Made by a program: the position numbers and the translations under genes
Assembly (NCBI RefSeq): GCF_016283395.1
Contig: NZ_JAEEMU010000034.1
Coordinates: 62,001-126,000, forward strand
Origin: Ruminococcus sp.
GTDB taxonomy: Bacteria; Bacillota_A; Clostridia; Oscillospirales; Ruminococcaceae
Length of the DNA stretch: 64,000 bases
Direction of reading: 5' to 3'
Part shown: positions 10,242 through 64,000 of the stretch, piece after piece
Numbering within the stretch: position 1 is the stretch's first letter
Layout: every line of letters starts with the position of its first letter
Notes under the pieces: generated by a model
Database searches by the model: none
The model's input: only the letters and a program-made list of their open reading frames with translations
Told to the model about the DNA's origin: nothing

Positions 10242-11327
10242 ATGGAAGATTATAAATATTTGGCGATAGTCGAATGGACTAAAAAATATATAAGTACAAG
10301 AGAACTAAAGCCGAAAGACCGATTTCTGACAGAAAAGGAACTGTGTGAGATACACGGTGTCAGCCGTCAGACAGTAAGACAGGCACTGAGCTGCCTTGAA
10401 AAAGAAAACATTATCTGCCGCGTAAGAGGCAGCGGAGCTTTTGTTTCATCAGGCTATACAAAGAGTGAGCCGGCTGCGGGACAGATAAGAAATATCGGTG
10501 TTATATCCACGTATTTCAATGATTATATTTTCCCGAATATCGTTACGGGCATCGAAAGTGTACTCAACGATTCCGGCTATTCTATGCAGCTTGCCATAAC
10601 ACATAACAGGGGAGCTGAGGAACGACAGGCTTTGCAGAGCATGATATCGGGCGGAGTTCAGGGACTTATTGTAGAGCCGTCAAAGAGTGCTCTTCCAAAT
10701 CCTAATATGGATCTTTACGAAGAGCTGAAAATAAAGAATATCCCCGTTGTGTTCTTCAATGCAAAATATCCGTGGTCTGATTGTCCGTGCGTATCCCTTG
10801 ATGATGAAGCGGCAGGCAGGATAGCTACAGACAGGGTGTTCGACTGCGGACACAAAAAGATCGCAGGAATATTCGCACTTGACGATATACAGGGACACAA
10901 ACGATACAGCGGCTTTACAAAAAGTTGTATTGCCCACGGTATAAGAAACGCTGAGGACAACGTAATGTGGTTCGCAACATCGGATAAGAATTCGGTATTT
11001 ACTTCGGGCTGCACCAGACTTCTTGAGCTTATCAGCGAATCTACGGCTTTTGTCTGCTACAATGACAACATAGCCATAAAGCTTTTGAAATTCTGCAAGG
11101 AGCATAACATAAGTGTTCCTGACGATTTGTCTGTAATAGGTATAGACGACTCGAAGTTCGCTTCTATATGCGATGTTCCGCTTACAACTGTTGTTCATCC
11201 GCAGCGCAAGCTTGGAGAGGCAGCAGCCGAGAAGCTCATAGACCTGATAAATACCTATCCTTCGGATAGCGGAGACATTATTTTTCCCCCTGAGTTAAGG
11301 GTGCGTGAATCGGTAAAGAGTATCTGA
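10242..11327 (+). CDS. araR: AraR-like repressor: GntR winged helix plus LacI-type sugar-binding domain
   Basis: The start is at ATG 10242 behind gggaggt; the longer frame from 10191 lacks a ribosome site. The protein has 361 residues. Residues 1-70 form a GntR winged helix (LTEKELCEIHGVSRQTVRQAL, here split as LTEKELCEIHG and VSRQTVRQAL). The rest is a periplasmic-binding-protein-like effector domain (from about residue 85, IGVIS, to VIGIDDSKFA and the HP motif near the end). This GntR-LacI chimera is the hallmark of AraR, which releases DNA when it binds L-arabinose. It sits directly before the arabinose uptake and catabolism genes, and matching operators lie in its own and the downstream promoter. 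Confidence 0.88.
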   Translation: MEDYKYLAIVEWTKKYISTRELKPKDRFLTEKELCEIHGVSRQTVRQALSCLEKENIICRVRGSGAFVSSGYTKSEPAAGQIRNIGVISTYFNDYIFPNIVTGIESVLNDSGYSMQLAITHNRGAEERQALQSMISGGVQGLIVEPSKSALPNPNMDLYEELKIKNIPVVFFNAKYPWSDCPCVSLDDEAAGRIATDRVFDCGHKKIAGIFALDDIQGHKRYSGFTKSCIAHGIRNAEDNVMWFATSDKNSVFTSGCTRLLELISESTAFVCYNDNIAIKLLKFCKEHNISVPDDLSVIGIDDSKFASICDVPLTTVVHPQRKLGEAAAEKLIDLINTYPSDSGDIIFPPELRVRESVKSI

Positions 11328-54792: not shown

Positions 54793-56235
54793 CTATATCT
54801 CAGTTGGAGCGATTATATATGATTTCACACCGCCATGTCCGCCGAATATCTGCCATTTCCCTATACCGAGACGTTGAAACAGTGCTGTTCTCTCGGCAGT
54901 GCAAAGCTCCTTGTCGGTATCTACTGACGTCATAAGTATTGGTGCATATCGGTTGTACTGTGCCTGCTGAGCGGTCGTTTCTTTCATATTTACGAAAATA
55001 TCACCTGTAAAAGCGAGATGGTGATCGTAGTCAATAAGAACAGATTCTCCGGCAAGATGTCCGCCTTTACCCTCAAACAGCTCAAAATGCAGTTCTCCGA
55101 AATCAATGAAACCGGTCTGTTCTATAAGCTGACTTATTTCTTTTTCATCTCCTACAACGCTCAGTTTTTCAGCTGACACAGCAGTATATGAAGTAAGGAC
55201 TTTGCAAATTCGTACATATGGCTTGTGCAGTGGATTCATCTCACGGAATCCGTCCTCGTTGTTACTTTCAAGCCGGAGACACTCCGCTGTTTTAGCGCTT
55301 GCATACACAGTATCGAAAATCGGCAGCAGTCCGCAGTGGTCAACGTCCGCATGAGTTATAAAACATTTCTTTTCAATTCTGTCAAGTTCAGGGATAATGT
55401 TTCTGAAAACCGACAGCATTTCCTCTTTATAACAAGCGTAGCCCGTGTCAATGAACAGGTATTCGTCACAGCTTTTTATAATTGCCGTATTGCTGCCGCA
55501 CGGAGGCTCGATAAGGGTTATTACTGTATTATCAGTAATATTATGATGAGTTATCCTTGGTGAGAAATTCCTGCTCCTTGAAGTTGCAAGTAACTCTGCA
55601 AAATGGCTTATGCTGTCAAAAGTACGGTAAGGAGATACACCCGTATCGTCCAGTATCTGCATAGCCAGATTTGTATTGACTATGAGTTCGTTTTTTGCTT
55701 CGGAGGATATTTCCATCGCAGCCGAGAGTTCATTAACGAATGTACTGTAAAAGAAGCTGTTGTCAAATATCTTCTCAGCATGATTATATTCGATAACTCT
55801 GACACTGCAAAGCTTTTTCGCTTCTTCTATGAAATCATTAATTTTATCTGAATTATCAACTATAAGTCCCATTTTGAAAAGCTGATATTCTGTACCGTTT
55901 TCCTGTGAGCTTATGTATGAAATATTGAAACTATGTGCGCTTATAAGCTCAAGTATCGAAGTAACACTTCCGGGTTCATCCTTAAGCCGAAATTCAAGAA
56001 GCATAACACTGCGATTATCCTCGTCACACTGGAGATACCCAATATCTGTCAACTCTTTGGAAGCTTTTGCAAGCTGCTGAGGAGTTCCCTCTGCATCGAT
56101 AAACAGCATATGGGAATCCACAGCTTTGTTATAGCTTACTCTCGTGATATTTATACCGAGTGAGGCAAAACATTTGCTTGCCTTTAGAAATGCCCCTATA
56201 TGATTCGGCATTTTCGTTACGAAAGTCTTGTTCAT
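54793..56235 (-). CDS. Tandem ACT domain plus metallo-beta-lactamase-fold protein
   Basis: The protein has 480 residues. Residues 1-75 and 78-155 are two ACT domains (MPNHIGAFLKASKCFA, LKDEPGSVTSILELI), which bind amino acids as regulators. Residues 235-480 are a metallo-beta-lactamase fold with FITHADVDHCG (HxxxDH), GGHLAGE, AFTGDIF and FGGHGG as metal ligands. It overlaps the acyl-CoA synthetase stop by 1 bp and is co-transcribed under the T-box. It may be an amino-acid-gated thioesterase or hydrolase. The fusion itself seems unusual to me. Confidence 0.85.
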   Translation of the reverse strand: MNKTFVTKMPNHIGAFLKASKCFASLGINITRVSYNKAVDSHMLFIDAEGTPQQLAKASKELTDIGYLQCDEDNRSVMLLEFRLKDEPGSVTSILELISAHSFNISYISSQENGTEYQLFKMGLIVDNSDKINDFIEEAKKLCSVRVIEYNHAEKIFDNSFFYSTFVNELSAAMEISSEAKNELIVNTNLAMQILDDTGVSPYRTFDSISHFAELLATSRSRNFSPRITHHNITDNTVITLIEPPCGSNTAIIKSCDEYLFIDTGYACYKEEMLSVFRNIIPELDRIEKKCFITHADVDHCGLLPIFDTVYASAKTAECLRLESNNEDGFREMNPLHKPYVRICKVLTSYTAVSAEKLSVVGDEKEISQLIEQTGFIDFGELHFELFEGKGGHLAGESVLIDYDHHLAFTGDIFVNMKETTAQQAQYNRYAPILMTSVDTDKELCTAERTALFQRLGIGKWQIFGGHGGVKSYIIAPTEI

Positions 56236-58586
56236 TATTTCTTATACTTTGCGTTATCCATTTCACGGATAGCAGCACGGCGGATTTTTCCGCTTCCGAC
56301 AGTCTTGGGCAGCTCCGGAACGAACTCAACAACTCTCGGATATTTGTAAGGCGCTGTACGCTCCTTGACGTAATCCTTGATCTCTCTAACCAACTCTTCT
56401 GATCCTGTCTTATCCTTTGTGAGAACAATGGTCGCTTTTACTACCTGACCTCTTATCTCGTCCGGAACACCAGTAACAGCACATTCAAGAACATATGGCA
56501 GCTCCATGAGCACACTCTCGATCTCGAACGGTCCGATACGGTAGCCTGATGACTTGATAACATCATCAACACGGCCCACATACCAGAAATAGCCGTCTTC
56601 GTCTACCCATGCGGTATCGCCTGTGTGGTAGTAACCGTCACGCCATGTCTCGGCTGTGTTTTCCTCATCGCCGTAGTAGCAGAGTGCAAGTCCGGGAACA
56701 CCGTATCCTGTGGCATTTTCGTCCTTGAGTTTAACACAGATCTCACCTGTCTCACCTACGCCTGCGGATGTGCCGTCGGGAAGGAGTACCTGTACGTCAT
56801 ACTGCGGATTTGGCTTGCCCATACTGCCGGGCTTGGGCTCCATGCCGACAACATTTGCAATAGTAAGTGTTGTCTCGGTCTGACCGAAGCCCTCCATGAG
56901 CTTGATGCCTGTTGCCTTGTAGAACTGGTGGAATACCTCAGGGTTGAGTGCCTCACCGGCGATGCAGGCATATTTAAGTGAAGAGAGATCGTACTTGGAA
57001 AGGTCTTCCTTGATGAAGAAACGGTACATAGTCGGAGGTGCGCAAAATGATGTTACATTGTACTTCTTGAACATGGGAAGTATATCATCTGCGTGGAAAC
57101 GCTCGAAGTCATATACGAATACAGCAGATTCGTTCATCCACTGACCGTAAAGCTTGCCCCAGAGAGCCTTGCCCCAGCCGGTATCAGAGATAGTGAAGTG
57201 GAGACCGTTCGGGTCAGCATTCTGCCAGTAGCGTGCAGTTACATAGTGACCGAGCGGATACTGGTAGCTGTGGAGAACGAGTTTCGGATTTCCTGATGTA
57301 CCTGAGCTGAAGAAAATGAGCATCGGGTCAGTACCACAGGGAGTCTCGGCAGTGCGCTCAAAATGAGTGCTGTATGCTGAAAGCTCCTCATTGAAATCGT
57401 GCCATCCTTCTCGCTGTCCGTTTACGATGATCTTTGTCTTGAGTGAAGGAGAAACAGCACAAGCCTTATCAACTTCATCTGCAACCTCGCCATCAGAAGT
57501 ACATACGATAGCAGATACTTCAGCCGAATTGAATCTGTATTCAAGGTCGTGTTCCTTGAGCATATTTGATGCAGGGATTACAAGCGCACCAATACGGTGG
57601 AGAGCGATGATCGAGAACCAGAACTGATAGTGGCGTTTAAGGATAAGCATAACTCTGTCACCTTTTTTTATGCCCAGTGACTTGAAGTAGTTGGCAGTCT
57701 GACAGGAATACTTCTTGATGTCTTTGAAAGTGAACTTTCTCTCATTATGATCAACGTCAACATAGATCATAGCAGTTTTGTCAGGACATTTTTCAGCCAT
57801 TACATCAATGATATCATATGCAAAGTTGAACTTATCCTCATTTATGAATTGAACGCCGCTGAGAATTCCGTTCTCATCAGTCTCGCATTTGACAAACTTT
57901 TCTGAAACCGGATTAAGAAGACCTGCTTTATCGACATTTGTAAGATGATGTTCAGCAATATGCTCACGGAATTCAGTCATTCCTGTTGTACCGCGCGGAG
58001 CCATTACGAATGCGTATATCTCACAGTCTTCGCCGCCGAGAGCGACTTCATCATGCGGCATGGAACTGTCATAATAAATACAGTCTCCCTCATGGAGTAT
58101 CTCTGTATGTGAACCAACTGTCATACGTACAGTACCCTTTAAAACGATATCCATTTCCTGTCCAGCGTGGCTTGCCATATGCAGAGGCTGTGAAAGAGCT
58201 TCTTCTGAATATGGGATAACAACATGAAATGGTTCAACGATCTTGTTTTTGAATTTTGATGCAAGGCGGTTGTAGGCAAAGCCCTTTCTGCGAACGATAG
58301 GCAAACCCTCGCCCTTACGGGTAACTGTATAGCCGCTGAGTTCAGGACTGCTTCCTTCCATGAGGTCGGTGATATCAACGTTAAAGGTATTAGCACATTT
58401 GTAGATGAACGTGAAACTAAAATCCTGTTCACCTGATTCGTATTTTTTGTAGTCTTCAACGGAGTATCCTGTATTTACAGCCATTTCTTCGACTGAAATA
58501 CCAAGATCTTCACGCAGATTTGAAATACGCTCTGCGACCTCTCTGATTCTTACTTCTGCATTCTGCAATTCCGTCATTTTACTCAT
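56235..58586 (-). CDS. XRE-cupin-acyl-CoA synthetase fusion
   Basis: The start is ATG 58586 after aaaaggagag. The protein has 783 residues. Residues 12-75 form a XRE helix-turn-helix and 115-200 a cupin (HMASHAGQEMDIVLKG and EGDCIYYDSSMPH). Residues 265-783 are an AMP-forming ligase of the acetyl-CoA-synthetase superfamily: FFSSGTSGNPK (A3), GFGQTETT, YHTGDTAWVDEDGYF, GRVDDVIKSSGYRI and the catalytic Lys in SGKIRRA. It activates a carboxylic acid to its acyl-CoA. It lies directly behind a T-box riboswitch, so expression rises when a particular tRNA is uncharged. The acid is likely a precursor of that amino acid, but this is inference. Confidence 0.9.
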   Translation of the reverse strand: MSKMTELQNAEVRIREVAERISNLREDLGISVEEMAVNTGYSVEDYKKYESGEQDFSFTFIYKCANTFNVDITDLMEGSSPELSGYTVTRKGEGLPIVRRKGFAYNRLASKFKNKIVEPFHVVIPYSEEALSQPLHMASHAGQEMDIVLKGTVRMTVGSHTEILHEGDCIYYDSSMPHDEVALGGEDCEIYAFVMAPRGTTGMTEFREHIAEHHLTNVDKAGLLNPVSEKFVKCETDENGILSGVQFINEDKFNFAYDIIDVMAEKCPDKTAMIYVDVDHNERKFTFKDIKKYSCQTANYFKSLGIKKGDRVMLILKRHYQFWFSIIALHRIGALVIPASNMLKEHDLEYRFNSAEVSAIVCTSDGEVADEVDKACAVSPSLKTKIIVNGQREGWHDFNEELSAYSTHFERTAETPCGTDPMLIFFSSGTSGNPKLVLHSYQYPLGHYVTARYWQNADPNGLHFTISDTGWGKALWGKLYGQWMNESAVFVYDFERFHADDILPMFKKYNVTSFCAPPTMYRFFIKEDLSKYDLSSLKYACIAGEALNPEVFHQFYKATGIKLMEGFGQTETTLTIANVVGMEPKPGSMGKPNPQYDVQVLLPDGTSAGVGETGEICVKLKDENATGYGVPGLALCYYGDEENTAETWRDGYYHTGDTAWVDEDGYFWYVGRVDDVIKSSGYRIGPFEIESVLMELPYVLECAVTGVPDEIRGQVVKATIVLTKDKTGSEELVREIKDYVKERTAPYKYPRVVEFVPELPKTVGSGKIRRAAIREMDNAKYKK

Positions 58587-58671
58587 AATAATCTCTCCTT
58601 TTAAAAATTGATACTGGAAAATGAAACGGTCGCAGAAAAATACTGCCGCTGTCTTTACCGCGAAAAACAAA

Positions 58672-58939
58672 AAACTCGTCTCAAAGATAAATACTTTGAG
58701 ACGAGTATCATAATCTGATTACCCGCGGTACCACTCAAATTGTGCCGCTATTGCGTAACACCACTTCAGACTCCAGCAAGTCCTATTCATTAACGCAGAA
58801 TCACGGGAACGCTTACTGAAATCCTTTCAGCATTCCGGCTCAGAAGGGATACATAGCATTGCTTGACACCGACTCACACCGACCGTCGGCTCTCTGCAGA
58901 CATTGGCAATCCTCTGCTTGTCTTCCTCATAGCTTATGT
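58672..58939 (-). ncRNA. T-box riboswitch controlling the acyl-CoA synthetase operon
   Basis: On the minus strand the leader contains the T-box core (58736-58722, gagtggtaccgcggg) and an upstream Stem I region with a ggtcggtgtgagtcggtg-type apical segment. A strong terminator pairs actcgtctcaaag with ctttgagacgagt and T-run (58706-58672). The antiterminator bulge reads UGGU, which would pair with a tRNA ending ACCA, so tRNAs with discriminator A fit. The specifier codon lies near gcaatgctatgtatcc (58870-58850), with GCU, UGU or UAU possible; I could not settle it. Confidence 0.92.
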
Positions 58940-58944
58940 TCAGG

Positions 58945-58973
58945 ATTATATCATACAAAAATCCATTTGTCAA
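58945..58973 (-). promoter_or_regulatory. Promoter of the T-box leader
   Basis: On the minus strand, TTGACA (58973-58968), a 17-bp spacer and TATAAT (58950-58945): perfect consensus. Confidence 0.92.
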
Positions 58974-59140
58974 TACCTTTTTCGAAAAAATATTTTTTAA
59001 TTATTGCGAGATTTTGTTTAATCAATGCACAAAAAGCTGCCGCTACGGAGTTGAATTTGTGCTCTGAACTATATTCTATGACTGAAATTTGATATTTTTG
59101 TAAGTTGTTTTAGGCTTTTTGATAAAGCTTGGTTATATTA

Positions 59141-59169
59141 TTGAAAAATAATCCTGTTTATGGTATAAT
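59141..59169 (+). promoter_or_regulatory. Promoter of MaoC-like gene
   Basis: TTGAAA, a 17-bp spacer and TATAAT at 59164-59169. Confidence 0.8.
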
Positions 59170-59216
59170 ACACTTATTTCCAATAGCTATTTTCTTTTAT
59201 ATTCTGGAGGTATAAT

Positions 59217-59648
59217 ATGTATTTTGATGAAATGAAAATCGGAATGAGCGTTGACGTAGCCCCTGCTGTTATAGACAAAGGTAAAATGATTGCGTTTGCA
59301 AAAGAGTATGATAATTTACCGCTGCATACAGATGAGGAATATGCAAAGACAACTCACTTCGGTAAACTTATTGCTCCCGGGGTTATGTCATTCATGACAG
59401 TATGGGCAAAGTACCTTGAAGTGGATTTTTTCGGTAGCGAACTGCTTGCGGGTAAATCAACAAAAATTGAATGGCACAAGCCGGTTTTCGCAGAAGATGT
59501 GCTGACAGGAAAAGCAACTATAACAAACCTCGTTAAGCGTAATGATAAAAATGGAATCGTAGCCGTATCCTTTGACGTTTATAATCAAAATGGTGAGCTT
59601 GTATTGACTGATGTGACAGAAGCAATTGTAAAATGCAGATTACAGTAA
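59217..59648 (+). CDS. MaoC-like (R)-enoyl-CoA hydratase / hot-dog dehydratase
   Basis: The protein has 143 residues behind tggaggt. A single hot-dog domain carries DNLPLHTDEEYAKTTHFGKLIAPG (catalytic D and H of the MaoC motif, given as DNLPLHTDEEYA and FGKLIAPG) and VFAEDVLTGKATI. The family hydrates or dehydrates enoyl-CoA. It is divergent from the T-box operon and 260 bp away. Together they may modify a branched or aromatic acyl-CoA, but co-function is inferred only from neighbourhood. Confidence 0.88.
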   Translation: MYFDEMKIGMSVDVAPAVIDKGKMIAFAKEYDNLPLHTDEEYAKTTHFGKLIAPGVMSFMTVWAKYLEVDFFGSELLAGKSTKIEWHKPVFAEDVLTGKATITNLVKRNDKNGIVAVSFDVYNQNGELVLTDVTEAIVKCRLQ

Positions 59649-60080: not shown

Positions 60081-61706
60081 TCATATTAACTCTAAAAGCT
60101 GATCGATATTCTTCTTTCCAAACATAGGTTTTCCGTCATTGATGATCATGCAAGGCACGCTCATAACATTATATGTTTCTCTCCACGCTGGAAAATGATT
60201 GAGATCATATACCTCTGTACTCACATTCGGGTTCAATGCAGCAATGCGCTGTGCGCTCATGACAAGCTCTGGGCACATCGTGCAGGACAGCGACACCAGA
60301 ATGCGAATATCCGTTTGCTTGTTGATGCTCTGTGCCTTTGCTTTCAGCACATCATCAAGTGGCTGACCAGGACCTGCCGCATTGTATAATCCAAGCATAA
60401 AAGAAGTAAACTCATGACCGCCTGGGACTCCATGAAATGCCAAGCCCAAATAGTTTCCGTTTGAGTCACATATCTGAACCATTGGTCTGTCATCAACCGG
60501 TTCTTGATTCTCCTGTATAATGAGTTTGTCCGTCAGCTTTGCCATTTCGTACATATAAGTCTTCAATTCAACAGACAATGCCGAATCATCTAGATACAGC
60601 TTCAACAAGAGCTGTCTTTCCATTCTTGCAAAGACAGTCTGCATTTGCTGAATCATATCTGATGAAAACAACGTACTGTCTGTATTCGTATCTACTTTCG
60701 ATTGTGAAGATACGCTTTTTGCCGCTTCAGGCTTTTGCGGAATGTGACCGGTTTTACGCTGCATGGATTGTGCGTACTTTTCAAGTTCCGTTGCAGCCAA
60801 TGCCGCATCGCCAACAGCAGTAACGACCTGACGTAACGGCTTTACACATACATCACCGGCAGCATACAAACCGGGGATATTTGTTTTCTGTGACCTGTCG
60901 GTAATAATATACCCTTGTGAATCAAGCTCTGCAATGTCCTTGACAAGTGCCGTAGAGGGTTCGTATCCTGCAAAGACAAAGATACCGAAGGTATCATTCG
61001 TATCCGCCGTATAGGTCGTGATCTCGTCGGTTTTGTTGTTTCTATACGTGATAGTTTTTAATGAATCCTCTCCAGTCACTTCAAGCACTTCGGTATTGTA
61101 GAGGATGGTAATATCCTTGTGTTCCTTTGTCTCACGAGCAACTGCCTCGGCACAGGTAAAATCATCTCCACGGACAAGAACAGTCACATGACTTGCATAT
61201 TTTGTGAGGAATACACTTTCTTCCGCAGCAGCATAGCCGCCACCAATTACGAATACCGGCTTCCCAGTGAAAAACTCACCATCGCAAGTCGCACAATACG
61301 CAAAACCGTGTCCTCTAAATTCTGCCTCACCCTTAAAGCCAATCATTCGTGGATGCGCTCCCGTTGCCAGCAGGATGCCAAAGCATTTCAGATTTCCCTT
61401 TGAGGTTTTTACCGTCTTAATATCGTCAGTCACATCCAGTGAACTTACCTCTGTAAGCAGGAATTCTGCTCCGAATCGTTCAGCCTGTTTGCGCATTGCG
61501 TTAGTAAGGGTATTGCCGTCGGTGTGCAAGATACCAGGATAGTTGACCACCTCGGACGTGATTGTAATCTGACCGCCGAATTTTTCTTTTTCAACGACCA
61601 AAACCCTGTACCTTGCTCGTGCAAGATATAAGGCTGCTGTCAGACCGGCAGGTCCGCCACCGATGATTACAACATCATAAAGCTTTTTTTCATCTATATC
61701 CAGCAT
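60081..61706 (-). CDS. Thioredoxin reductase-like flavoprotein fused to an AhpF-type disulfide domain
   Basis: The protein has 541 residues. Residues 8-315 form a thioredoxin reductase module with FAD loop GGGPAG (16), redox pair CATC (138-141), NADPH loop GGGYAAAEE (155) and the closing AAGDV. A Ser/Lys-rich linker (315-345) leads to a double thioredoxin-like domain (about 350-541) with CTMC (475-478). AhpF has the same parts in reverse order (disulfide domain first). It starts in the ahpC stop (1-bp overlap), so it most likely reduces AhpC with NAD(P)H. A flipped AhpF is uncommon. Confidence 0.92.
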   Translation of the reverse strand: MLDIDEKKLYDVVIIGGGPAGLTAALYLARARYRVLVVEKEKFGGQITITSEVVNYPGILHTDGNTLTNAMRKQAERFGAEFLLTEVSSLDVTDDIKTVKTSKGNLKCFGILLATGAHPRMIGFKGEAEFRGHGFAYCATCDGEFFTGKPVFVIGGGYAAAEESVFLTKYASHVTVLVRGDDFTCAEAVARETKEHKDITILYNTEVLEVTGEDSLKTITYRNNKTDEITTYTADTNDTFGIFVFAGYEPSTALVKDIAELDSQGYIITDRSQKTNIPGLYAAGDVCVKPLRQVVTAVGDAALAATELEKYAQSMQRKTGHIPQKPEAAKSVSSQSKVDTNTDSTLFSSDMIQQMQTVFARMERQLLLKLYLDDSALSVELKTYMYEMAKLTDKLIIQENQEPVDDRPMVQICDSNGNYLGLAFHGVPGGHEFTSFMLGLYNAAGPGQPLDDVLKAKAQSINKQTDIRILVSLSCTMCPELVMSAQRIAALNPNVSTEVYDLNHFPAWRETYNVMSVPCMIINDGKPMFGKKNIDQLLELI

Positions 61707-62269
61707 TACAGCATCCCCACAAGGTCAAGGCTGGGCTTGAGCGTTTCCGCACCGGGCTGCCACTTGGCTGGGCAAACCTCATCGCCGTGTTCATGAACGA
61801 ACTGTAAAGCCTGTACCTTTCTAAAAAGCTCCTCTGCATTTCTTCCGACATTTCCGGCATTGACCTCATATGCCACGATCTTGCCTTCTGGATTTACCAC
61901 GAAGGTGCCGCGTTCAGCCATTCCGTCTGCTTCAATCAGAACGTCGAAATCTCTGCAAAGTGCATGAGTCGGGTCTGCAAGCATCGGGTATTCAAGCTTT
62001 TTAATGCGTTCGGAGGAATCGTGCCAAGCCTTGTGAACAAAATGAGTATCCGCAGATACGGAATAGATTTCACAACTGATTTTCGTGAATTCTGCATACT
62101 TGTTCTGCAAATCTTCTAACTCTGTCGGGCAAACGAAGGTGAAATCTGCTGGATAGAAGAAGAAAACACTCCACTTACCTATGATATCACCCTTGCTGAC
62201 TTTCCTGAATTCTCCGTTCTGATATGCCTGAACAGAAAAATCGCTTACTTCCTTGTTGATCAATGACAT
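61706..62269 (-). CDS. ahpC: Peroxiredoxin AhpC
   Basis: The protein has 187 residues, the standard typical 2-Cys AhpC size. The peroxidatic Cys is C47 in FTFVCPTE and the resolving Cys is C166 in DEVCPAKW. It reduces peroxides, protecting this anaerobe, and receives electrons from the fused reductase encoded 1 bp downstream. The promoter at 62350 and a nearby dyad suggest regulation. Confidence 0.97.
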   Translation of the reverse strand: MSLINKEVSDFSVQAYQNGEFRKVSKGDIIGKWSVFFFYPADFTFVCPTELEDLQNKYAEFTKISCEIYSVSADTHFVHKAWHDSSERIKKLEYPMLADPTHALCRDFDVLIEADGMAERGTFVVNPEGKIVAYEVNAGNVGRNAEELFRKVQALQFVHEHGDEVCPAKWQPGAETLKPSLDLVGML

Positions 62270-62518: not shown

Positions 62519-64000
62519 TTAATTCTTTTTCATATATTCTTCCATTGACATCGGAGTTTCTTTTGTAGTCGATACATATGCGTAGTACGAAAGAATATTG
62601 GAAGCATCTACTGCATTAATTAATCCATCATGATTTACATCTGCCGCAAGCTTCTGTTCCTCATCATATCCACCATCCTGATTTGTTGAGATCATAGCAT
62701 AATATGCAAGAACTGATGAAGCGTCAACAGCATTGATCTGTTTATCATTATTCACATCTCCAAGTGTGTAGGTTATAGGTTTTACTGGAGTTGTTGTCGT
62801 TGTTGTGGACTGAGCTGTATTTGTCATTGTTGATGTCGCAGTTGTTGTAGAGCCAATTACAGTTGTCGTGAACGTGTTCGTAGTCGTTGAGTTTGTATTA
62901 TTTGATGTTGAGGTAGTTGTTGTAGTCGTAGCAGTCGTTTCCTTGGTTGTTGTGGTAGTTGAGGCTGTAGTTGTAGTGCTTGTCGAAGTAAGTGATGTTG
63001 TAGTAGTTGTTGAAGTTGCAGAACCTGATACTGATGTTGTTGATACAGCAACGGGAATATCTATGCTCAGTTCTCCGTCATTATTTACTGAAATGGTACC
63101 ATTTGCTTTTATATAAGGCAGATATCGTTTCAGCGTTGAAGCGCTTACGTACTTGCCGAGTCCGTTCGTAAGCAAACCTGATACTTCGGCATAAACACTT
63201 ACATCAGCACTTGTTATGGCTCCGGTAATATTTACCGGATTTCCGTTTGGTACGTAAATACCGCCCTTTTCACCTTTAATACAGATATTGCCGCTCAGAT
63301 TTACCGTACCTTTTGTCATGCACTTAAGACCATAATCTTTATCACTTAATATCTTTCCACCTGATATATTCACTATACAGTCTGAAGGAGAGCCACTGAC
63401 TGCTGCTCCAATGTCTGAGTGCATCTCTCCGTCAGTTATGTTGAGAGTACCAGCAAATGTATCAGCAAGCCATACTGAATAAACGTTGGTTTTTCCGTTT
63501 TCAGCAGAGGAAGCTTTCAGTCTTCCACCCATAATGTTTATGATGCCATCTTTAGTTCTTAAAGAAAGAGCATGACTGTAGTATCCGATAATCTCTCCAC
63601 CGTAATAATCAAAACTTCCGTCATTGATCCTTACTGTTGCACAGACTGTTTTCTTATCATATCCATAAAAGTTACCGCCATAAATGGTCAGTTTATTGTA
63701 TGATGTTATAAGGTTGCTATCCGCTGTGCAAATGATCGTACCTTTTTTCTGCTGATCACTGTCCCTGATTATAACATTGCTTGTGCTGTTGCATATTATC
63801 TCAGGTATCTTTACTGTATGGCCGTTCAGGTCAAGATCAAGCATTCCGCTTATGGTTATATAGCTTTTAACGTCTACATCGCATTCAAGCTTATAAACAC
63901 CTGCAACAGGCAGAATGTCAGTTCTTTTTCAAGCTCTTTCTTCACTTTCAATGAAATCCAGCCCGTTCTTCTTTGCGAAAGTCTCCGCAGCTGAATCCTT
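62519..64000 (-). pseudogene. Beta-helix protein with Thr-rich linker and dockerin, interrupted near the right edge
   Basis: The open frame from 63844 (441 codons) has beta-helix repeats (residues 1-255, such as GIINIMGGRLKA and IVNISGGKILS). A very Thr-rich linker (about 265-355) and a C-terminal dockerin follow (GDVNNDKQINAVDAS and ADVNHDGLINAVDAS). The Met at 63844 has no ribosome site, and sense continues upstream (LPVAGVYKLECDVDVKSY) to an in-frame TGA at 63931-63929; beyond it the frame is open to the window edge (DSAAETFAKKNGLDFIE). The gene appears to carry a nonsense codon, or one lies at a sequencing error. It would be a cell-surface or cellulosome carbohydrate-binding protein. Confidence 0.72.

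Follow-up and report, generated by a model that had tools for sequence, protein, structure and literature searches.

A T-box leader with an isoleucine specifier precedes a putative 2-methylbutyrate-CoA ligase gene in a ruminococcal genome

Organization of the locus

The window analyzed here is a 64,000-nucleotide stretch of a Ruminococcus sp. genome (contig NZ_JAEEMU010000034.1, positions 62,001 to 126,000), whose minus strand carries a T-box leader in front of a gene for an AMP-forming acyl-CoA synthetase (hereafter the ligase) with an XRE-type helix-turn-helix (HTH) and a cupin domain at its N-terminus. The ligase gene is followed by one encoding a protein with ACT and metallo-beta-lactamase (MBL) folds, and a MaoC-like gene lies divergently on the other side of the leader (Table 1). 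The presence of a T-box before the ligase, proposed by an earlier sequence-only reading, is borne out by a match to the Rfam family RF00230 over the full length of the model, with a promoter in front and a terminator behind. RF00230 was the sole Rfam family reaching its gathering threshold in the window.

Table 1. Features of the ligase locus, in window coordinates
Feature	Position	Strand	Evidence or remark
Promoter, sigma-70/A type, TTGACA-17-TATAAT, TG before -10	58945..58973	-	12/12 consensus matches
T-box leader, RF00230	58694..58939	-	115.3 bits (gathering 93), E 8.9e-25, model 1-219 of 219
Specifier codon AUC, read as Ile	58848..58850	-	Ligase-family leaders and register controls
T-box core AGUGGUACCGCG	58724..58735	-	Sequence, Rfam alignment
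Intrinsic terminator, predicted alternative to the antiterminator	58674..58706	-	13 pairs and T run
XRE-cupin-AMP-forming acyl-CoA synthetase, 783 aa	56235..58586	-	AAGGAGAG before ATG at 58586
ACT/MBL-fold protein, 480 aa	54793..56235	-	Pfam ACT and MBL
MaoC-like gene, divergent	59217..59648	+	Pfam domain

Promoter-like sites occur six times in the region, against a mean of 2.1 in shuffled sequences. The terminator hairpin folds with -19.8 kcal/mol (z -6.2), and the Rfam alignment of the leader includes the UGGU core and the antiterminator pairing. The Stem I stretch folded alone was no better than shuffles (z +1.35), so that the claim of a leader structure rests on Rfam and on comparison with other leaders. 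The UGGU of a T-box core should pair with the discriminator base A73, which is found in tRNA-Ile and tRNA-Val, while tRNA-Cys has U73; the core of the window fits an A73 tRNA such as these two and speaks against cysteine. With known RF00230 T-boxes the leader shares the full-length match, the terminator/antiterminator layout, the UGGU-ACC core and the specifier register of the controls described below. It differs from them in its target, an acid-activating ligase instead of a tRNA synthetase, a transporter or a classical biosynthesis gene, and in lacking the GAA that the Rfam consensus has in front of the codon.

The specifier codon

To read the specifier comparatively, a genome collection was scanned with the ligase alignment and the best 80 of more than 80 loci were kept. 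According to their titles, these come from metagenome-assembled genomes, mostly of Clostridia sampled from ruminant guts. The matched ligase is directly preceded by a T-box core in 66 of these loci, as it is in the window, and 70 loci have such a core before some ligase when tandem and shifted matches are counted. When the leaders are aligned by the 3' part of the specifier loop, they show ATC-N-C or GTN-N-C and then a stem strand with GAG or AAG at its end; the corresponding region of the window is CUAUGU-AUC-C-CUUCUGAGC. Among the 67 ligase leaders, window included, the specifier is AUC in 52 and a valine codon in 15 (GUA in 11, GUC in 3 and GUG in 1). A first specifier script returned several candidates in five leaders; once the search was restricted to ATC or GTN, each of the 67 gave a single match, ending 7 bases before AG.

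The register was controlled with leaders of other genes. RF00230 matched in all six relatives' genomes searched, 42 times in total, and 24 leaders were read: four before the ligase, three before LeuA-like genes, three before PaaK, three with an unclear target and 11 before amino-acid-specific genes, whose amino acid was recognized by eye. All 11 controls carry the cognate codon in the same register, namely GTA for ValS, ACC for ThrS (twice), TGC for CysE (twice), TTC for PheS (twice), CTC for LeuA and TGG for TrpB/TrpE (three times). The distance from the end of the codon to the AG of the conserved GAGC is 7 bases in eight of them and 8 bases in one, the GAGC mark being missing from the fragments tested for the ValS leader of L083 and the ThrS leader of L109. 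In the window AUC ends 7 bases before this AG, while GCU, UGU and UAU, among which the sequence-only reading had looked for the specifier, end 14, 10 and 12 bases before it and are ruled out. In the register fixed by the ligase-family leaders and the 11 controls, the specifier of the window is AUC, isoleucine.

The ligase and its predicted substrate

Four domains are recognized in the ligase: HTH (residues 19-78), cupin (137-192), AMP-binding (264-628) and AMP-binding_C (688-762). Its closest solved structure is 3ETC (677.7 bits, the runner-up scoring 365), with a match that begins at residue 240. This is the structure of MacsMa, a medium-chain acyl-CoA synthetase of Methanosarcina acetivorans; its preferred acyl substrate is 2-methylbutyrate, and its pocket is shaped by Trp259 and a glycine (PMC10455477). 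An alignment read by eye places W454 and G568 of the window ligase at these two positions; both are invariant across 20 aligned sequences. The two enzymes are therefore alike in their catalytic domains and pocket residues and differ in the HTH and cupin that the window ligase adds at the N-terminus. The top NCBIfam model was MbcS, methylbutyryl-CoA synthetase (NF047394); with 456.8 bits against a cut-off of 850, the ligase is not a member of this equivalog. The Staphylococcus aureus MbcS is selective for 2-methylbutyrate and isobutyrate (PMC10026030). The acid activated by the window ligase is thus probably 2-methylbutyrate, as predicted by kinship. The sequence-only reading had named a specifier unrelated to the activated acid as grounds against its own proposal, and this check turned out in its favor, with an isoleucine codon in front of an enzyme whose nearest characterized relatives use 2-methylbutyrate.

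The relation between specifier and ligase was examined on a FastTree phylogeny of 98 ligase sequences, seven of whose specifier labels were assigned by hand. It comprises 57 rows with an Ile specifier, 26 with a Val specifier and 15 without a T-box of their own; L050, L061 and L079 carry a T-box yet are missing from the tree, none of their ligase open reading frames (ORFs) having been clustered. A single change between Ile and Val is needed on the tree, and the 26 Val rows form one clade with five T-box-less rows (local support 100). At position 472 all 57 Ile rows have Gly, as does MacsMa, and all 26 Val rows have Ala; the equivalent residue is Ile in ACSM2A and Val in an Acs. However, 33 of the 40 positions that best discriminate Ile from Val rows fall in the HTH-cupin part, so that site 472 proves little about the substrate.

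Among the 15 rows without their own T-box, two stand at contig ends, five come directly behind a first ligase (ligase 1) and eight show none (L006, L007, L009, L010, L013, L022, L053 and L030). In L030, L065, L067, L074 and L077 a ligase of the Val clade is found right behind ligase 1 and has no T-box of its own; because of this position, these second ligases may share the signal of ligase 1.

Gene content of relatives' loci

Genes for a ketoisovalerate:ferredoxin oxidoreductase (VOR) occur in 25 of the 80 loci, 14 of which also contain the branched-chain aminotransferase gene ilvE. A ligase ORF was clustered in 24 of the 25 VOR loci, and the VOR genes are on the ligase strand in 23. Ligases with Ile and Val specifiers stand side by side in 15 of the 80 loci. 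The recurring order, seen for example in L032, L033 and L056, is AUC T-box, ligase 1, GUA T-box, ligase 2, P-loop ATPase, VOR alpha, beta and gamma, and IlvE. In L033 the alpha subunit scored 536 on VorB (cut-off 399) and IlvE 484 (cut-off 307), the beta and gamma subunits remaining under the cut-offs of their best models. The P-loop ATPase, similar to ParA/CbiA (L033:6129-6800), was observed near ligases and VOR in 22 of the 80 loci.

This gene content bears on what becomes of the acyl-CoA. Since isoleucine is the usual source of the primer for anteiso membrane fatty acids, an Ile T-box could serve a ligase that supplies 2-methylbutyryl-CoA as that primer. In favor of such a role, the top model is MbcS, which in S. 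aureus feeds branched-chain fatty acid synthesis for the membrane (PMC10026030), and the ligase has no VOR next to it in the window, L001 or L002. In contrast, VOR and IlvE near the ligase in the loci counted above represent amino acid chemistry, and the adjacent Val-specifier paralogue of 15 loci also argues against it. We regard a purely lipid role as unlikely; both fates may hold at once, because the acyl-CoA is common to them.

VOR enzymes can run in both directions, and the same genes could accordingly belong to a catabolic operon, with VOR as the oxidizing enzyme for branched 2-oxo acids and the ligase acting on the acyl-CoA or the acid that isoleucine fermentation produces. However, a T-box induces its genes under shortage of the amino acid, whereas catabolism would need the reverse, and an AMP-forming ligase consumes ATP. 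We hold this explanation to be very improbable.

Routes to isoleucine in the host genomes

Pathway genes were counted in 50 of the 80 genomes, a non-random choice of mostly longer loci. Scores over cut-off were found for ilvC and ilvD in the same nine genomes and for ilvA and cimA in four each, the models of the latter two exceeding their cut-offs in just five of 14 control genomes each; VorB was found in 45 and the completeness control ileS in 48. For threonine dehydratase ilvA was the sole model searched, and its best score below cut-off was 103 bits. Hits to ilvC below cut-off occurred in 14 further genomes with at most 31 bits, and in G010, G033 and G041 hits to the ilvD family reached 514-517 bits, below the 618 cut-off. 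Thus, ilvC and ilvD were both under cut-off in 41 of the 50 genomes, which speaks against the fatty acid primer role, and 45 had no complete classical isoleucine route by the models used, which speaks against the catabolic one.

The nearest relative of the window is G001, whose ligase (locus L001) is 89% identical to that of the window. Its genome has ilvC and ilvD over cut-off and, by eye, ilvB, ilvN, leuB, leuC and leuD, with Pfam support for ilvB, ilvN and leuC. It also carries leuA behind a T-box with CUC, a leucine codon, and a VOR operon that includes a ferredoxin gene. Neither ilvA nor cimA was over cut-off in this assembly of only 1.4 Mb, and the small size makes the absence of ilvA uncertain. 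From this gene content G001 would tentatively be able to make valine and leucine and apparently not isoleucine, which fits its lone Ile-specific ligase.

The gene content of G001 also suits another explanation, by which the ligase activates propionate and the propionyl-CoA is carboxylated to 2-oxobutyrate, which then enters the IlvBCD route to isoleucine: ilvC and ilvD are there, as are ilvB and ilvN, and ilvA and cimA are not over cut-off. However, the 41 ligase genomes with ilvC and ilvD under cut-off mean that this cannot be the general role of the family. Gly472 and the Trp454/Gly568 pocket agree moreover with MacsMa, which when CoA is absent releases the acyl-adenylate with propionate and does not do so with 2-methylbutyrate (PMC10455477). 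A propionate route is therefore quite improbable.

Proposed pathway and its regulation

Taken together, these results make it likely, in our judgment, that the operon of the window senses tRNA-Ile and drives a salvage of 2-methylbutyrate to isoleucine by reductive carboxylation. Uncharged tRNA-Ile would bind the leader through the AUC specifier and through the pairing of its ACCA end with the UGGU bulge, upon which the antiterminator would form and transcription would read through the terminator. The ligase would then convert environmental 2-methylbutyrate to 2-methylbutyryl-CoA, a VOR-type 2-oxoacid:ferredoxin oxidoreductase would use reduced ferredoxin and CO2 to produce 3-methyl-2-oxopentanoate, and the branched-chain aminotransferase IlvE would yield isoleucine. 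VOR would have to run in the carboxylating direction and is presumably encoded elsewhere in the window's organism, as its nearest relative, G001, has a VOR operon. The central claim of the sequence-only reading, that empty tRNA turns on the activation of the matching acid for reductive carboxylation, is well supported: it fits the Ile codon, the kinship to MacsMa and MbcS, the VOR and IlvE genes near the ligases of many relatives, and the many genomes in which ilvC and ilvD are under cut-off.

Several observations weigh against this proposal. The gene behind the ligase in the window is ACT-MBL, neither VOR nor IlvE being adjacent, and a complete classical isoleucine route (ilvC, ilvD and ilvA or cimA) was found in five of the 50 genomes. 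G001 possesses a second full-length XRE-cupin ligase (L148, G001:C22:50495-52798), which shares 63% identity with that of the window and is close to the group of T-box-less ligases; no T-box was detected near it in L148, so that G001 may have a constitutive copy. The association of the ligase with missing pathway genes is fragile. It was sought in 119 genomes of the family of G001, of which 75 had a ligase match and 18 were judged by eye to be full-length (G127, whose match begins at residue 141, was included; G163, with 45% and five stops, and G055, whose match begins at residue 229, were left out). The fused ligase went with fewer ilvD (6/18 vs 61/101, p 0.041) and fewer ilvA (4/18 vs 52/101, p 0.038), p varying from 0.04 to 0.14 when borderline genomes were moved and kinship being uncorrected; we dropped this anti-correlation as evidence for these reasons.

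The leaders of relatives bring further such points. Of nine loci in which a pattern had found the ligase leader, Rfam recovered it at gathering in five (L138, L003, L011, L025 and L033) and missed it in L005, L024, L042 and L073, so that some relatives' leaders rest on weaker scores; below the threshold, RF00230 scored 86.0 on the ligase leader of L042 and 89.4 on the Val leader of L033. No Rfam T-box reached gathering in seven loci or genomes that lack a visible core (L155, L143, L006, L007, L010, L013 and L053). Ten of the 80 loci have no T-box before any ligase: a clade of six (L006, L007, L009, L010, L013 and L022), L053, L030, and L040 and L044, whose contigs are cut at the ligase gene. 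The family sample adds Ile leaders in L138, L140, L144, L145 and L146; no leader turned up at L139/L155, at L143 or at L142, whose match is cut at residue 141.

Two side observations concern the T-box-less ligases. The clade of six has the same fused ligase, which might be controlled by its own HTH-cupin part, and in L053 two tandem c-di-GMP-I riboswitches (10558-10794, plus strand) lie 3' of the ligase.

T-boxes before other acid-activating genes

T-boxes were also encountered before genes that could act on other acids. In 12 of 15 loci a T-box core stands 5' of a LeuA-like gene, with CTC (10) or CTG (2), leucine codons read by eye. A fusion of a xylose-isomerase-like TIM barrel with an AMP-ligase occurs in 14 loci, mostly directly behind the LeuA-like gene, and the pair is a possible isovalerate route to leucine. 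The LeuA-like genes with a Leu T-box lie in L042 (4786-8820), L011, L015, L029, L038, L049, L056, L063, L065, L070, L075 and L077. PaaK-like genes with a Phe T-box (TTC, by eye) were found in four genomes (L011, L025/L092, L100 and L110), the codon standing 8 bases from AG, a distance that one PheS control of the two shares, and such a ligase possibly opens a phenylacetate route to phenylalanine. In L011 (15815-17702) and L025 (from 12840 on) a gene for an ACT-pair protein comes behind the PaaK-like gene.

Rumen cellulose degraders have been known since the 1960s to need branched-chain acids, which they carboxylate to isoleucine, valine, leucine and phenylalanine, and Robinson and Allison (1969) and Allison and Peel reportedly found that rumen anaerobes carboxylate isoacids to amino acids (both as cited in PMC2812497 and PMC7356843). 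In rumen fermentation 2-methylbutyrate is a precursor of isoleucine and isobutyrate one of valine (PMC7356843, PMC2812497), as the specifiers predict. The earlier work was physiological, whereas we propose candidate genes and their regulation. T-boxes, MacsMa-like ligases and the carboxylation pathway were each already known separately. In the open-licence literature we found no paper in which a T-box is connected with the activation of acids; such leaders could be listed in the large 2008-2009 reviews on T-boxes, and the main text of a 2008 survey, in its available part, contains no word starting with CoA, acyl or oxidoreductase (PMC2494555).

On balance it seems more likely than not that gut Clostridia possess a tRNA-sensing regulon in which the T-box codon of each acid ligase stands for the amino acid to which its substrate is converted, the classical pathways being often lost. 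The assignments would be isoleucine from 2-methylbutyrate, valine from isobutyrate (ligases with Ala472), leucine from isovalerate (LeuA-like and TIM-barrel/AMP-ligase genes) and phenylalanine from phenylacetate (PaaK with a two-ACT protein). If so, these bacteria would depend on acids that fermenters of amino acids release, and the charging of single tRNAs would pick the acid that is activated. T-box control would be extended to acid activation, and the codons would assign ligases to single amino acids, making their substrate predictable from RNA. This suggests that the charging state of individual tRNAs gates cross-feeding in rumen and gut and, if true, bears on why isoacid feed supplements help fiber digestion.

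Neighboring genes in the window

The start of the ACT-MBL gene overlaps the stop of the ligase gene by one base (TAATG), so translational coupling of the two is likely. The layout of XRE-cupin-ligase and ACT-MBL described by the sequence-only reading is real, while of the tandem ACT domains one is recognized by Pfam (residues 80-141, in addition to the MBL domain) and the first is seen only in the pattern of predicted secondary structure, where the AlphaFold model has low confidence. This model has a mean pLDDT of 75.9, with generic MBL folds among the 50 matches listed, and no solved structure was matched by sequence. The metal motif reads H295-x-D297-x-D299-H300 and is invariant in 25 sequences. 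MBL hydrolases have HxHxDH as their metal motif, which the ACT-MBL protein lacks in this canonical form, the fold still matching MBLs.

A full-length homologue, 61-64% identical, exists in five other genomes of the 50, and in the four 12 kb surroundings read (L150-L153) neither ligase, VOR nor T-box stands beside it. Apart from the window, L001 and L002 are the only two of the 80 loci in which the gene is next to the ligase, and we rejected it as a conserved partner on this ground. The sequence-only reading had proposed that its ACT domains sense the finished amino acid; one may guess that it exerts product-sensing control of the acyl-CoA/acyl-adenylate pool or is an isoleucine-sensing thioesterase.

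The MaoC-like gene, which had been suggested to process the same acyl-CoA, is not conserved in the 80 loci: it clusters with a single gene among them (L011), in a different setting. We rejected it as a partner, and it is probably outside the system.

Elsewhere on the minus strand, positions 60081-62269 encode a pair of AhpC and an AhpF homologue, over the cut-offs of TIGR03137 and TIGR03143, and positions 62519-63844 encode a protein with two C-terminal dockerin-like repeats, recognized by eye, as expected in a cellulosome-bearing ruminococcus.

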